Shown one piece after another: positions 1,033-41,497 of a stretch of 64,000 bases of DNA. How positions within the stretch are numbered: the stretch's first letter is position 1; each line of letters starts with the position of its first letter. The notes under the pieces are model-generated. The model made no database searches and was not told the DNA's origin. It saw only the letters and a program-made list of their open reading frames with translations. Source of the DNA: an uncultured Anaerolineae bacterium (GTDB lineage: Bacteria > Chloroflexota > Anaerolineae > Promineifilales > Promineifilaceae); contig CAJQMR010000007.1 in the NCBI GenBank assembly GCA_905479495.1, positions 62,001 through 126,000 on the forward strand, read 5' to 3'. The translations under genes were made by a program, and so were the position numbers.

Positions 1033-3336
1033 TTACTCCGCGAGTTCGGGTAGGCCTAGCCAGGAGCCGTAAAAGTAGCTGATGAACAGAAAGAGACCTC
1101 CAAATCCGGCAAAGAGCAGAATCCGCCAGACGGTTTCTACCGCGACCAAGTCTACCAGGAACAGTTTACCGACTAGCACAAATAGAGTTGCCAGGGCGAC
1201 CAGTCGCAGGCGTTGGTGGTGGAAGTAAAGGGCGACGCTTAGCAAAATAACAGCGTAAATGCCCCACACCAAGGTTACCAAGCCTTGACCGCTGAGCTGG
1301 TTGAGTTCTTGCCAGAACCAGGTAAGCAGCGCCACATGGGTGCCCAGACGATACCCGATGCGAACATAGATCTCCTCTGCATCCGTGAAAAGGTAGGAGG
1401 TGATAAAGATGAGCCCAATAATGGCCAGGCTGAAGAAGGATTGTAGGTTGAGAACGGCCGTTACCGATCGATGCCATAACATTTGGTTAAACAACAAAAT
1501 CATGACAATCATGGATAGTAAATGAGGCAGCCAACGCATCAGTTCTTGCTCCTGGCGGCGGGCATCCCAATGGAGCAAAACAGCATGAATGGCCCAGCTC
1601 ATGGTGACCAGACCAGGAATGTAAAATGGCTGCAGCTCGCGTCGCCACCAGAGCAGCATGGCAATATGGGCAATGAGCCAATAGGCCAGGCGAAATGGCG
1701 AGTTCTTTCCAGTTTGGAGGAAATACGCAATCATAAAAAGCAGGCTAATGATGGTGAGGTCGATGAGGGAATCCAGATTCAAAATCTGGATGTGCCTACC
1801 CGTCACGATGAATCTCTCAAAGAGTCTTTCAAACAAGAAGGCCGTGACTATCAGCGATAAAACATGGGCACCTATCTGTAAGGATGGGAATTTGACATAA
1901 CGTTTGCCCACATGAAGGAACGTAGCTTCCAGGGCAAAGGCCAATAGGAGCCAACTGCCATCAAAAAGTTGAATAAGGGCGATGTTGACAAAGAGAACGG
2001 CCGTTACCCCATGTAAATACCAAATAGCATCCCGCCCTGGCCTGGTACTGATTCCTAGGGCGACCAGGCCAAATAAACAAGCGGCTCCCAGTGTGATTAA
2101 ACCCTCGCTAACATCTGAAAGATGCCACAGCTGCCAGGTGAGCCACAAAGCCATCAGGGGATTTAGCAAAATGGTGAAGCGTGGATGAACTTGTAAGGGT
2201 AGCTGACCTATCTGCGACAAATACGAATCGGCAATACCAAATTTGACGGGCGGCAGGCGGTGGGGGTCTTCTAGCCAATCCAAATGACGCAAAACAGGCA
2301 TGGCCCAAAACATGAGCAGGCCAAAGAGAATGCCTCCTTGCATGGTTAAATTTTCGGCATTGACTATGCGGCTTTCAATCAGGCCCGCCGTCCACATGAC
2401 GCCAAGCAGGATGCCCCAGCCACCGACATTGGCCAGCCAGAGCAGAATTTGCCATCCCTGGAAAAAGTAAATCAGCACCAGACTGCCGCAAATTAAACAG
2501 GTATAGATGATGAGACCAATAATGTTGCCCTGGCCTGTGTAAAGTAGAAACGGTGTGGCCAATCCACCCAAACCGCCAATTAAGGACAGCATTGCTTCCT
2601 TTTGCCGCAGTGAAAGCGTAAAGGCCAAAATCGTCACCAGGAACATAAAGCCAAAGGCAACGGGGAAAGAAACAAGGTCATACAGACGGAAGGCGGCAAA
2701 ACCAGTGATGTAGTAAGCGGCAATGCCCCCACCTTGTACTGCCTGGCCAAAATGCGGCCGTTTTTTTGCTGTTCTATACCCAATGCCTAACAAACTGGTG
2801 CCCAACATTAAGCCAATGGCCACGCGCTCTGGCGGACCAATCCAGCCCTGGTCCACTGCATAATTAAACAAAAATGCCAGCGCCAACAGCAGCAGGCCCA
2901 GACCTATCTTGTTAAACCAGAAATCGCTACGCCAGATGTTTTCTGGCAGGTTCAAGCGCGGCAATTCAGATTGTGGTGGCGTTGGTGGTGGTGTTGTTGC
3001 TGGTTGGGCTGACCATTGCGCGGGGGGGAGGGTGACTGGTGGTGGGGTTGGGCTGGGAACGGCCGTTGCTAATGGTGTGTCTGATGTCGGTGGTTCTGGT
3101 GGTGGGTGAACGGCCGTTTTCGGCAAAGGTCGTGGCCGCTGGGGCGGAGGTGGTTCGGGCGGTTTGCCGGAGCGTTCGCGGTAATGATCAGCCACGATGG
3201 TTTCCAGGCGGGCCAGCCGTTGGGCCAGCGCCCTAAACATGTCAGCCTGGCGGAAGTTGGTCTGGCAGTGGCGGCAGGTGATGCGGCCAGCTTCGTTTTC
3301 AGTGCCACAAAATGGACAAATGATTTTCTCACTCAT
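1033..3336 (-). CDS. DUF2339 multi-pass membrane protein with N-terminal zinc ribbon
   Basis: A 767-residue protein. Residues 1-30 hold a zinc ribbon with Cys at 7, 10, 21 and 24. A short helix and a Pro-rich linker (about 50-125) follow. From about 135 to the end it is a long series of hydrophobic helices, including a G-I-G-Y-R-T segment and an A-x-Q-G-G-G-I-A-A-Y-Y-I-T-G motif, as in the DUF2339 family of predicted membrane proteins. The family has no settled biochemical role. The ATG at 3334-3336 follows GGGGAGATACC. The gene is separated by about 100 bases from the dihydrouridine synthase upstream and probably has its own promoter. Confidence 0.85.
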   Translation of the reverse strand: MSEKIICPFCGTENEAGRITCRHCQTNFRQADMFRALAQRLARLETIVADHYRERSGKPPEPPPPQRPRPLPKTAVHPPPEPPTSDTPLATAVPSPTPPPVTLPPAQWSAQPATTPPPTPPQSELPRLNLPENIWRSDFWFNKIGLGLLLLALAFLFNYAVDQGWIGPPERVAIGLMLGTSLLGIGYRTAKKRPHFGQAVQGGGIAAYYITGFAAFRLYDLVSFPVAFGFMFLVTILAFTLSLRQKEAMLSLIGGLGGLATPFLLYTGQGNIIGLIIYTCLICGSLVLIYFFQGWQILLWLANVGGWGILLGVMWTAGLIESRIVNAENLTMQGGILFGLLMFWAMPVLRHLDWLEDPHRLPPVKFGIADSYLSQIGQLPLQVHPRFTILLNPLMALWLTWQLWHLSDVSEGLITLGAACLFGLVALGISTRPGRDAIWYLHGVTAVLFVNIALIQLFDGSWLLLAFALEATFLHVGKRYVKFPSLQIGAHVLSLIVTAFLFERLFERFIVTGRHIQILNLDSLIDLTIISLLFMIAYFLQTGKNSPFRLAYWLIAHIAMLLWWRRELQPFYIPGLVTMSWAIHAVLLHWDARRQEQELMRWLPHLLSMIVMILLFNQMLWHRSVTAVLNLQSFFSLAIIGLIFITSYLFTDAEEIYVRIGYRLGTHVALLTWFWQELNQLSGQGLVTLVWGIYAVILLSVALYFHHQRLRLVALATLFVLVGKLFLVDLVAVETVWRILLFAGFGGLFLFISYFYGSWLGLPELAE

Positions 3337-3434
3337 GGTATCTCCCCTTGGCTAAAAAGTGGCAAGCTTTTTTAGCCCAATTGTTAAGAGACAGGGTACG
3401 GAAACGGCCGTCTGGCGTCAAACACTTGAGTGCG

Positions 3435-4460
3435 TTAAGTGATGTTTCGTTTGGTTGGGAGAGGAAAGAAGGGGGTTTTGCGTAACTCGGCGATGGGGAG
3501 ATGGGCGGAAACGGCCGTTTCCATCTCATCTAGCAATTCTTGAAACGCCGGTACAGTTTCAGTTGTTTGAAAAGCCCGTAAAAAGGGCTTGAGGGCCAGT
3601 CCAGAAAGATATTTTTTCAGATGGCGATTCATGTTTTGCAGACCGTCAGTGGGTCCGTAGTAGGCCAGGGCTTCGTGTAGATGGTGGCGCAGAACGGCCG
3701 TAACTTGCCTAAACGTCAACTGCTCCCGATCTTGCCGGGCAAACAGCCACGGATTTCCCAACGCTGCCCGACCAATCATCACGCCGTCGCAGCCCGTGTG
3801 CGCTTTGAGCTGGTCGATGTCGGCCGCGGTGCGCACATCACCATTGCCCAGCACTGGCACCGAGACCGCCTGCTTGAGCCGGGCAATTGCCTCCCAATCT
3901 GCCTGGCCGCGATACTTTTGGCTGCGAGTACGGCCGTGCAGGGCCAGCAGTGTCGCGCCGTTGTCCACCATGATTTTGGCAATCTCCAGATAGTTTTGGC
4001 TGGATTCGTCCCAACCCAGGCGCAGCTTGCCCGTTACCGGCACGCTGAGGTGTTTGCTGAGCAGGCGAAACGTTTCCGCTACCAGCTTTGGCTGGCGCAT
4101 CATGCCCACCCCTGCCCCTTTTTCGCTAATTTTGGGTACAGAGCAGCCCAGATTGATGTCGATGATGGTTGGTCCCCACGTTTCAATGCGCTGCGCCGCC
4201 TGCAAAATTTGCTGAGCATCATGGCCAAAAATTTGGAACACCATCGGATTTTCGCCATCTGGATGAATGTCCAGCCGTCGCCACAGCGGATTTGGATCAT
4301 GCAGCAGCGCTTCGGTGGGAACAAACTCAGTGTAGTGCATGGCCGCGCCAAACCGGCGGCAAATCGCCCGGAACGGCACATCGGAGTACGCGGCCATCGG
4401 GGAGAGGATGGTGTCGCCGTAAACGGGCACATCGCGGACGAAAAAGGTGGGAGATGGCAT
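3435..4460 (-). CDS. dusB: tRNA-dihydrouridine synthase
   Basis: An FMN-dependent TIM-barrel enzyme that reduces uridine to dihydrouridine in tRNA D-loops; 341 residues. The family landmarks appear in order: S-P-M-A-A-Y-S-D near the N-terminus, D-I-N-L-G-C-S-V-P-K-I with the catalytic Cys (S replaces the usual Pro after it), V-T-G-K-L-R-L-G-W, L-A-L-H-G-R-T-R-S-Q-K-Y, L-G-N-G-D-V, and G-V-M-I-G-R-A-A-L-G-N-P-W for FMN phosphate binding. The ATG at 4458-4460 is preferred over a TTG one codon earlier. It lies 15 bases after the Nudix gene, so the two are probably co-transcribed. The subtype (DusB) is less certain than the family. Confidence 0.93.
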   Translation of the reverse strand: MPSPTFFVRDVPVYGDTILSPMAAYSDVPFRAICRRFGAAMHYTEFVPTEALLHDPNPLWRRLDIHPDGENPMVFQIFGHDAQQILQAAQRIETWGPTIIDINLGCSVPKISEKGAGVGMMRQPKLVAETFRLLSKHLSVPVTGKLRLGWDESSQNYLEIAKIMVDNGATLLALHGRTRSQKYRGQADWEAIARLKQAVSVPVLGNGDVRTAADIDQLKAHTGCDGVMIGRAALGNPWLFARQDREQLTFRQVTAVLRHHLHEALAYYGPTDGLQNMNRHLKKYLSGLALKPFLRAFQTTETVPAFQELLDEMETAVSAHLPIAELRKTPFFPLPTKRNIT

Positions 4461-38920: not shown

Positions 38921-39187
38921 ATGAACAACGCAGAAAACAAGGATGCTCAAATAATTATGTACACCACAAGCTGGTGTTCAGACTGTCATCGGGCCAAGTA
39001 TTTGCTGGATGAATACGGCGTTACTTATGTCAATATAGATGTTGATGAAAACCCTGAAGGTCTGGCATTTGTAAAGCAGATGAACGGTGGTAACCGAGTT
39101 GTACCCACCATTGTCTTTCCAGACAGCACAATTTTGGTTGAACCTTCAAACGCGCTTTTGGCAGAAAAAGCTGGCATTGAGCTTTAA
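38921..39187 (+). CDS. glutaredoxin/mycoredoxin-like thiol reductase
   Basis: 88 residues with the thioredoxin-fold redox motif W-C19-S-D-C22, then Y-V-N-I-D-V-D-E-N and the cis-Pro loop V-P-T-I-V-F. This matches the mycoredoxin/NrdH-like subgroup that reduces mixed disulfides or supports ribonucleotide reduction. The ATG at 38921 follows GGAGAAGTAAAG. It diverges from the sigma factor gene with a 106-base gap, which leaves room for shared control. Confidence 0.9.
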   Translation: MNNAENKDAQIIMYTTSWCSDCHRAKYLLDEYGVTYVNIDVDENPEGLAFVKQMNGGNRVVPTIVFPDSTILVEPSNALLAEKAGIEL

Positions 39188-39405
39188 AGACCTGCAAATT
39201 GGCTGCAATTTTAATTTAAAGCAAGAAATTTTAGGCAAAATGCCAGTGCAATTGTTGATCATTTCAATTATAATGAACGGTATTATTCAGGCTTTTACTA
39301 TCATGTGTCGGCATATGCATTTAACATAGATGTAGACACCTGGAGTTTCCGACCGACTCGCAGCAGATGGTATAGCTCAGTAGTGTGCAGGAGATATGAC
39401 CGATT

Positions 39406-39570
39406 ATGAAAGAGTCTATGTCGATCAACAAGTTCAACGAGTTGTTAAAAGCTGGTAAGTCTGAAGATTCCTTGCTGGCCACCTTGCTCCAATTAACGAA
39501 AGTATCCAACCACAAAGATTTATCCGAACTGCGTAAGACAGAGGTTTGGGGCTGGTATTGGGACTGGTAG
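39406..39570 (+). CDS. short Trp-rich peptide, putative ComX-like precursor
   Basis: 54 codons. The N-terminal 40 residues are a polar, Leu-rich, Lys/Ser leader (M-K-E-S-M-S-I-N-K-F start, then L-L-K-A-G-K-S-E-D-S). The C-terminus is E-V-W-G-W-Y-W-D-W, with four Trp and one Tyr in the last seven residues. No signal peptide. The size and C-terminal aromatic core resemble precursors such as ComX, whose Trp is prenylated by the adjacent ComQ. The next gene (39778) is a prenyl-synthase-like protein. AGGAG lies 12 bases before the ATG, a little long, and another ATG is closer in a different frame. The homology to ComX is by size, core and neighbour, not alignment. Confidence 0.65.
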   Translation: MKESMSINKFNELLKAGKSEDSLLATLLQLTKVSNHKDLSELRKTEVWGWYWDW

Positions 39571-39635
39571 TTCATTGGCGCTAGAGGGGGGGATGGCTAC
39601 GGCCGTATTCCCTTCTTGTTTTCCCTTCTCTTCCT

Positions 39636-39666
39636 GATTGTGTGCAGGGGTCGGCTGTACACAATC
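39636..39666 (+). other. strong hairpin between peptide and prenyl-synthase genes
   Basis: GATTGTGT-GCAG (39636-39647) pairs with CTGT-ACACAATC (39655-39666) as a 12-bp stem (one G-U) with a 7-base loop. No T run follows, so it is more likely an mRNA stabiliser or processing point that sets peptide-to-enzyme ratio than a terminator. Confidence 0.6.
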
Positions 39667-39777
39667 ATGCTCCCAACGCTGCTAAATGCAAATTGAATAG
39701 CAGGACCATTGGCCTTTCATCAACCACAACTGTGGTGCCCGGTATTATGCGATCACAGCTTAAGAAGGTGGAGCCTT

Positions 39778-40749
39778 ATGATTGATGTTACCCAAATGAG
39801 CACGTATTTTTTGCAGCAACCGGAAGTGGCTGCCTGGCCCGAATTGGTTGAGGTATGGCACCATTATGCGCAAAATGCGCACTCCTGGCACCTGCCGGAA
39901 CTGGCTTGCCAGGCTGTGGGCGGGGCTGTGGCGCGTGTGGTGCCGATGATAACGGCCGTTGGCTGCTGCCATATTAGCATTGTGCTGGTGGATGATATTT
40001 TGGATGATGATCCCAAAGGATTGTATCAGCGGCTGGGGGCGGGGGTCGCGGCAAACTTTGGCTTGGCGTTTCAATCGATTGCCTACCGTATTGTGCAGCA
40101 GGCAGCGGCAGAAATGGGGTGGGGAACGGCCGTAACGCAGCAAATGTTGGCCGAATTGATCCATCTCAACCTAAAAACCGCCTACGGACAGCATTTGGAC
40201 GTCCAAGAAATTCTTACCGAAGCGCATTATTGGGACACAGTGGAGGCCAAAAGCACGCCATATTACGGCGCTGGTTTTTATCTCGGTGCCCTGGCTGGCG
40301 GGGCTGACGAAGCAGTGGCCACTCAACTGCGCCAATTTGGTGGCCTTATTGGCAAACTCATTCAAATAAGCGACGATCTGGCCGATGTGTATCAAACTCC
40401 AGCTTGCCCTGATTGGCAGCGTGGAACTGGGAACCTGGCCATTTTGTATGCCCGGTTAGCAGAGTATTCTGGAAAAACCCGATTTGAAGAACTGTTGCCT
40501 AAAATTGCCGATCTATCACTGTTAGAAGAGGCGCAGCAGCTGCTGTTGCAAAGCGGAGCCGTTAGTTATTGCATTTACCATTTATTACAGACCGCCAGGG
40601 AGGCAAGGGCTGTCTTAAATGATTGTGTCTTAGAAAACCCGTTGCTGCTACAAAAATTTTTGGCCGAACGTATTTCCCATCTGTTTGAGTTAATGGAAAC
40701 CAGCAAGATGCCACTGCCAGCCGAACTGGCGGCTGAATTGTTGGCTTAG
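39778..40749 (+). CDS. polyprenyl-synthase-fold protein, putative ComQ-like isoprenyl transferase
   Basis: 323 residues of the isoprenyl diphosphate synthase fold. The first Asp-rich motif is D72-D-I-L-D76 followed by D-D-P-K-G-L-Y, and the second is D199-D-L-A-D203. G-Q-H-L-D (137-141) and an E-A-K-S-T segment match the substrate loops. The N-terminal 50 residues lack the usual long-chain synthase start, and length is close to ComQ-type proteins. Beside a Trp-rich peptide gene, a role in attaching an isoprenyl group to Trp is more likely than chain elongation (inference). The ATG follows AAGGTGGAGCC. It ends 25 bases from the convergent response regulator. Confidence 0.78.
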   Translation: MIDVTQMSTYFLQQPEVAAWPELVEVWHHYAQNAHSWHLPELACQAVGGAVARVVPMITAVGCCHISIVLVDDILDDDPKGLYQRLGAGVAANFGLAFQSIAYRIVQQAAAEMGWGTAVTQQMLAELIHLNLKTAYGQHLDVQEILTEAHYWDTVEAKSTPYYGAGFYLGALAGGADEAVATQLRQFGGLIGKLIQISDDLADVYQTPACPDWQRGTGNLAILYARLAEYSGKTRFEELLPKIADLSLLEEAQQLLLQSGAVSYCIYHLLQTAREARAVLNDCVLENPLLLQKFLAERISHLFELMETSKMPLPAELAAELLA

Positions 40750-40774: not shown

Positions 40775-41497
40775 TTACATTGAGGAATCGGCGGTGGAGG
40801 TGAAGCGGTAGCCTGTGCCTCGTTCGGCGACGATGTAGGTTGGTTCGTTGGGATTGACCTCGATTTTGCGCCGCAGCCGATGCACATGTACATGCAGGCG
40901 ATCTTCTTGAGCTTCTTCCATAGGCCAGATGCGGTTGAGTAAAAAGTCAGTGGTGACAATGCGGCCAGCATTGCGCACGAGAATGTAGAGCAGTTTTGTT
41001 TCTGTAGGGGTAAGGGAAACGGATTCGCCTTCTACTAAGGCTTCTCGATTGGGGAAATTCACCATGAGCCGGTCATCAATGCGGGTGGTTGACTCAAGCG
41101 TATAGCTGTAATCACCCATGCGGCGCAGCACCCGGCTTACCCGGGCTTTTAGCTCTTCCGGGTTAAATGGCTTCACGATGTAATCTTCGGCGTACTGTTC
41201 CAAGCCTTCGATGATAGTTTCTTCGGTGTTAACGGCCGTAAGCATAATAATCGGCATATCGCTGAATTCCCGTACCGCGTGACAAAACTCAAAGCCGCTC
41301 ATTATAGGCATGTGTAGATCCACAATAGCCAAATGGGGCATGCCATACCGATTAATGAGCTTGAGGGCATCTTGCCCTGAAGCGGCCGTCATTACCTGAT
41401 ACCCTGCCTGTTCCAGGGTATGCTGGACAATGCGCAAGGTAAAGGCATTATCGTCAACGGCAATGATTTTTTGGGATTCAATTGGGGAGTCAAACAT
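40775..41497 (-). CDS. OmpR/PhoB-type response regulator
   Basis: 240 residues. The receiver domain (8-125) has an acidic pocket (V-D-D-N), phospho-acceptor D60 in I-V-D-L-H-M-P, and conserved T and K (I-M-L-T-A, I-V-K-P-F). A winged-helix DNA-binding domain (about 145-235) has L-T-P-T-E-x-x-L-L, V-H-V-H-R-L-R-R-K-I and G-T-G-Y-R-F. No histidine kinase is adjacent; the nearest kinase in the window is at 8012-10540. The gene faces the prenyl-synthase gene end to end, so a shared function is possible but not shown. Confidence 0.92.
   Translation of the reverse strand: MFDSPIESQKIIAVDDNAFTLRIVQHTLEQAGYQVMTAASGQDALKLINRYGMPHLAIVDLHMPIMSGFEFCHAVREFSDMPIIMLTAVNTEETIIEGLEQYAEDYIVKPFNPEELKARVSRVLRRMGDYSYTLESTTRIDDRLMVNFPNREALVEGESVSLTPTETKLLYILVRNAGRIVTTDFLLNRIWPMEEAQEDRLHVHVHRLRRKIEVNPNEPTYIVAERGTGYRFTSTADSSM

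Follow-up and report, generated by a model that had tools for sequence, protein, structure and literature searches.

Does a short open reading frame that ends in a cluster of tryptophans, lying upstream of a gene of the prenyl synthase fold, belong to a system for a prenylated peptide in an Anaerolineae bacterium? The question is raised by one locus in a stretch of 64,000 nucleotides (called the window here). The initial annotation had read this locus as a ComX/ComQ-like pair in a phylum from which it knew of no described example.

The system used for comparison is ComQXPA of Bacillus and its relatives, which consists of the prenyltransferase gene comQ, the pre-pheromone gene comX, the kinase gene comP, and the regulator gene comA (PMC4008528). 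Prenylation of a Trp in the ComX precursor by ComQ, our model for the pair described here, is taken from PMC5331326. A census of 9,590 genomes in 2013 found comQXPA only in Firmicutes and none outside (PMC4008528), and a recent review of Trp peptide prenyltransferases lists only ComQ, ChrPC, and PalQ (PMC13290415). In another review, Chloroflexi are said only to contain the ComP–ComA pair (PMC8895600). Searches of the open-access literature, as far as its text was available, turned up no ComX/ComQ pair or prenyltransferase RiPP for Chloroflexota.

The Peptide Gene

39336–39405, + strand: conserved 5′ leader of X, with the ribosome-binding site AGGAG at 39389–39393
39406–39570, + strand: X, gene of a 54-residue precursor peptide (ATG at 39406, TAG at 39570), a leader followed by a Trp-rich C-terminus
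39541–39567, + strand: presumed core of X, EVWGWYWDW, with W48, W50, W52, and W54; the modified residue has not been determined

The 54-codon frame was placed correctly in the initial annotation, and three results indicate that it is a real gene. A hold-out HMM, trained on 20 peptides that all came from outside the genus of the window, ranked X first of the 723 open reading frames in the window with an E value of 5e-9 (runner-up, 0.25). The ratio dN/dS was 0.07–0.23 in all six pairs among four congeneric species; judged by these values, X is under purifying selection. As a control, the surroundings of canonical prenyl synthases (1757 open reading frames) were searched with the peptide profile, and nothing comparable was found (best E value, 0.3). 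From the sequence evidence, we thus judge that X is a real gene, beyond chance.

The tail WGW[Y/N]WDW is kept in the four species, and all four tryptophans that had been named as candidates are retained. Three congeneric genomes carry X beside the same enzyme neighbor, and these enzymes are 85, 72, and 71% identical to that in the window (Q). The last residue of X is a Trp (..DW), which is not general among relatives.

As in ComQXPA, a precursor of around 55 amino acids with a Trp near the C-terminus lies beside an enzyme of the isoprenoid synthase fold. The 54 residues of X fit the layout of a ComX-like precursor of about 50–60 residues with a prenyltransferase-type gene adjoining. Unlike ComX, X is not matched by the Pfam ComX family (PF05952): neither the window peptide nor five relatives gave a match, whereas two Bacillaceae ComX sequences passed the cut-off. 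A search of the window's own genome with PF05952 also gave no match. In the PalQ/PalX/PalP cluster of Paenibacillus alvei, a trans-IDS-like enzyme that acts on a C-terminal Trp occurs together with a histidine kinase, and PalX has an NHLP leader (PMC10853753). X resembles PalX in ending in Trp beside a trans-IDS-like enzyme. It differs in its leader, since no NHLP match was found in X or in two relatives from the same enzyme clade.

The Neighboring Enzyme

39778–40749, + strand: Q, ComQ-like presumed tryptophan prenyltransferase of 323 residues (Pfam polyprenyl_synt, E value 3e-16)
39991–40005, + strand: FARM of Q, D72-D73-x-x-D76
40363–40365, + strand: Gln196 of Q
40372–40386, + strand: SARM of Q, D199-D200-x-x-D203

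Q has the isoprenoid synthase fold with the first Asp-rich motif, and both Asp motifs are present as annotated (D72/D76 and D199/D203). The AF2 model has a pLDDT of 95. Its best structural matches are polyprenyl synthases (GGPP synthases), and Ord1 is matched as well. When solved structures were searched with the single sequence, Ord1 was nearest to Q (E value 3e-7), with canonical synthases scoring nearly equally. Ord1 is a free-tryptophan farnesyltransferase (PDB ID: 9v4g; PMC13290415). It shares the fold of Q but acts on free Trp, and no partner peptide gene is described for it in the sources consulted.

Compared with canonical GGPP, FPP, and polyprenyl diphosphate synthases, Q shares the fold, the FARM, and the SARM, but it lacks the IPP-binding Lys, the Arg-Arg that follows the FARM, and the His that precedes it. 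The Lys is absent from all 27 enzymes of the Q clade and present in 21 of 21 canonical synthases; the same counts hold for the Arg-Arg. The Asp residues of the FARM and SARM and the Gln are kept in the Q clade. According to a review, the second Asp-rich motif serves Trp recognition in Trp peptide prenyltransferases (PMC13290415). The Gln indicated by the same source was given no weight because canonical enzymes carry it too. Gln196 and the SARM were considered as a Trp-specific signature and dropped as diagnostic; canonical enzymes have both.

In the enzyme tree, which does not include PalQ, the canonical synthases fall into a starred group (98/99) from which the Q clade (100/99), Bacillus ComQ, and an NHLP-type group are left out. 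The best tree keeps the Q clade and Bacillus ComQ separate. Under the AU test, neither a union of these two (p 0.30) nor one of the Q clade with the canonical synthases (p 0.27) is rejected. The distinction of the Q clade from carotenoid and quinone chain synthases is thus supported in the tree, although the AU test alone does not exclude their joining. The initial annotation had left open which of these enzymes Q would group with, and had named a position firmly within the carotenoid or quinone synthases as a refutation. In the tree, Q lies outside the canonical group, and a grouping with Bacillus ComQ is neither supported nor rejected. The B. subtilis ComQ sequence that served as a search seed was used solely to locate genuine ComQ records.

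The synthase-like fold, the two Asp-rich motifs, the structural matches to GGPP synthases, and the AU value for the canonical enzymes would also suit an ordinary short-chain prenyl diphosphate synthase with X as an unrelated frame. We consider this very improbable in view of the lost IPP site and the 98/99 group, and because the genome encodes canonical synthases elsewhere. The latter could also supply the prenyl donor.

A different chemistry at X is also improbable. Q could transfer a prenyl group that is then cyclized, or it could be a terpene cyclase with X as a regulatory peptide. Isoprenoid synthase folds are varied in their chemistry, and ChrPC couples prenylation with cyclization of the prenyl group (PMC13290415). 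Against this, no second cyclase gene was seen beside X and Q, and the conservation of Trp at the end of X fits Trp as the acceptor.

Flanking Genes and Intergenic Elements

38921–39187, + strand: glutaredoxin gene, the left flank of the X–Q site; not part of the system
39635–39667, + strand: hairpin in the spacer between X and Q
40775–41497, − strand: OmpR-type response regulator gene, converging on Q; judged not to be part of the system

The converging response regulator noted in the initial annotation is present, but it is a bystander. Orthologues with 82–86% identity are found in genomes of relatives that have no X–Q pair. In one such genome (G004), the glutaredoxin and OmpR regulator genes lie approximately 90 bp apart with nothing between them, and the gene order otherwise matches. 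These two observations rule out the regulator as a partner of X and Q. The empty site also implies, on comparison of gene order, that the X–Q pair was gained or lost as a unit, which speaks against an ordinary synthase next to an unrelated frame.

From the stop codon of X to the ATG of Q there are 207 nt, in agreement with the initial annotation. The hairpin in this spacer, previously given as 12 bp, has a stem of 13 bp (−19.3 kcal mol−1, z −2.9). Its columns are 73% invariant, compared to 34% over the entire spacer. The 5′ leader of X (70 nt) is 84% invariant across the four species, compared to 40% in the upstream intergenic stretch. We infer from the conservation of both elements that control of X–Q expression is probably conserved too. 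Rfam gave no match for the leader or the hairpin, and promoter and terminator scans found nothing exceeding shuffled sequences.

The 5′ leader is single-copy in the genus, with no further copy found. The stretch at 39336–39405 is a possible regulatory RNA.

Related Loci

A class-wide search of 396 genomes gave around 25 loci, and 66 were found when named genomes were scanned. The 66 named loci come from Anaerolineae and a few Acidobacteriota MAGs, and three species of the window genus are included. A sample of 400 genomes from across the phylum yielded only six strong matches, five of them in Anaerolineae. A match to the peptide profile lies upstream of the enzyme in 61 of the 66 loci (the frame at L115 is doubtful), and 52 of these 61 peptides contain W-x-x-W. 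The profile was trained partly on the same genomes, and weak matches (E values up to 1) were counted if correctly placed; only the window genus is a clean hold-out. Enzyme homologues without a Trp-rich upstream frame would have refuted the initial reading, and this is not the pattern observed. The upstream matches also argue against an ordinary synthase.

The peptides of relatives have around 50–60 residues. Their leaders are of the type MTIxEFNxLLxS..LLxxLRQLT, and their ends are rich in Trp (for example, WVGWR, SWMGWGY, AWTGWW, or TWSVWG). The tail in the window genus, V-W-G-W-Y/N-W-D-W, differs from the W-x-x-W of these relatives.

Four of the named loci (L101, L106, L134, and L138) are from Acidobacteriota MAGs. 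Their enzymes belong to the Q clade too and have a ComP-type kinase adjoining, and L134 and L138 form their own subclade in the enzyme tree. This suggests transfer between phyla or, for the short contigs L101 and L106, misbinning, which is not excluded.

Sensor Kinases and Regulators

In 59 of the 66 loci, the pair adjoins a large kinase whose sensor is of the ComP type, a feature that goes beyond the initial annotation. It lies downstream in 30 and is divergent in 29, and a convergent NarL-type regulator follows Q in every one of the latter. The kinase and receiver domains were verified with Pfam. No kinase adjoins at the remaining seven loci, namely those of the three window-genus species, L145, and three at contig ends. 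A sensor-half profile for which no bacteria other than those of these loci were used finds Anoxybacillus ComP over approximately 400 collinear residues with an E value of 7e-24, whereas the best of 200 shuffles gave 0.06. Priestia ComP is found with 9e-12.

By gene content, the loci of relatives are ComQXPA-like: they share the adjoining ComP-type kinase, and about half of them have a NarL-type regulator as well. They differ from ComQXPA in gene order, which is either X-Q-P or an arrangement where P diverges from X-Q and the regulator is convergent. The enzyme has a complete DDxxD as its second motif and forms a separate clade, and the phylum is a different one. The window genus differs further in that its locus is without P and A. 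The window contains no ComP-type kinase, and its X–Q locus has no adjoining ComA/NarL-type regulator, the neighbor being of the OmpR type. As far as gene content can tell, the window has a reduced form of the locus, from which P and A are missing.

Outside the window, the genome encodes two ComP-type sensors. One is in a locus on contig 46 (L006) that consists of an enzyme, a ComP-type kinase, and two NarL-type regulators; it has its own candidate peptide, which lacks Trp, and for that reason the locus could not be taken as the partner. The other belongs to a family-wide kinase of around 1340 residues on contig G000:C3 (L189, G000:C3:218000–234000), in which the ComP-like sensor, of PDZ and multi-TM type, lies at 225286–226434. 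Its role as the cognate receptor of X is unsupported, as it is present in many genomes of the family that lack the pair. Because no receptor adjoins the pair and both ComP-type sensors belong elsewhere, a signaling role, which is well supported for relatives, is only plausible at the window locus.

The product in the window genus might then be prenylated without being a signal, for example, a membrane-active lipopeptide against competitors or a cell-surface molecule, the receptor having been lost as the role changed. In the genomes of the genus that were examined, the pair is flanked by neither a ComP-type kinase nor a NarL-type regulator, and no kinase dedicated to the product of X was found elsewhere in the window genome. 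The core is also unusually rich in Trp (W-x-W-x-W-x-W compared to W-x-x-W). However, the pair and ComP-type kinases are closely associated in relatives, neither an immunity gene nor a dedicated export gene was seen beside X and Q, and orphan or shared sensors remain possible. We therefore hold this change of role to be possible but rather unlikely.

Proposed Function

The conserved pair, the distinct enzyme clade, and the adjacent ComP-type kinases of relatives support the ComX/ComQ-like reading of the initial annotation. X and Q quite probably form a cassette for a Trp-prenylated peptide of this kind, in which the prenylation itself, the Trp site, the chain length, cleavage, export, and sensing are inferred. 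The loci appear to work like ComQXPA, yet X is not a member of the ComX family by sequence and the window locus is without P and A.

By analogy to ComQ/ComX and PalQ/PalX, a Trp in the core of X should be prenylated by Q; no chemistry has been observed. The first Asp-rich motif of Q would bind a prenyl diphosphate together with Mg2+, the prenyl group probably being geranyl, farnesyl, or geranylgeranyl. With its IPP site gone, Q should not elongate chains. Guided by the leader of X, it would move the prenyl group onto a Trp in the C-terminal core, and proteolysis of the prenylated peptide would free a short lipopeptide. In most relatives, this product would be sensed by the adjacent ComP-type kinase, which in about half of the loci would relay to the adjacent NarL-type regulator, completing a pheromone circuit. 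In the window genus, the lack of a dedicated receptor nearby suggests that the product may have its sensor at some other locus, or that the signaling role was lost or changed.

A broader proposal remains speculative. Anaerolineae and some Acidobacteriota may share a branch of signaling by Trp-prenylated peptides that is old and spans phyla, with its own leader, prenyltransferase clade, and ComP-type receptors, in which the window genus would be a receptor-less 'sender' whose core is perhaps prenylated at more than one Trp.

If the cassette reading is right, prenylated-Trp peptide signaling is spread through Anaerolineae, whose members here are almost only MAGs and whose cell–cell signaling is nearly unstudied. 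The loci would then offer dozens of predicted cores and enzymes for experiments, along with sensor kinases that could be matched to them.

Other ComQ-like Genes

In genome G003, a candidate peptide ending in NAVWPFGWY (L046, 6632–6760, − strand) is encoded in antisense where Q ends, ahead of P. Its layout resembles the opposite-strand comX reported in some Bacillus cereus strains (PMC4008528).

A second ComQ/PalQ-like group occurs in the same bacteria (L006 at 2778–6366 on contig 46 of the window's own genome, L047, L049, L050, L051, L077, L078, and L192). Several of these loci have full sets of peptide, enzyme, ComP-type kinase, and NarL regulator. As in PalX, the leader at L078 is of the NHLP clan, passing the cut-off (Os1348), and that at L077 matches more weakly; the other leaders of this group that were tested gave no NHLP-clan match.

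No relative of Q was found on plasmids at an E value of 1e-10. ComQ-like genes were seen on two. One plasmid, labeled Stenotrophomonas rhizophila and possibly mislabeled (L197, CP065518.1), carries a gene with 31% identity to the B. subtilis ComQ seed. The other, pREC3 of Acaryochloris marina, is a cyanobacterial plasmid predicted to be conjugative, with a ComQ-like 'polyprenyl synthetase family' gene at 3333–4280 (L199).
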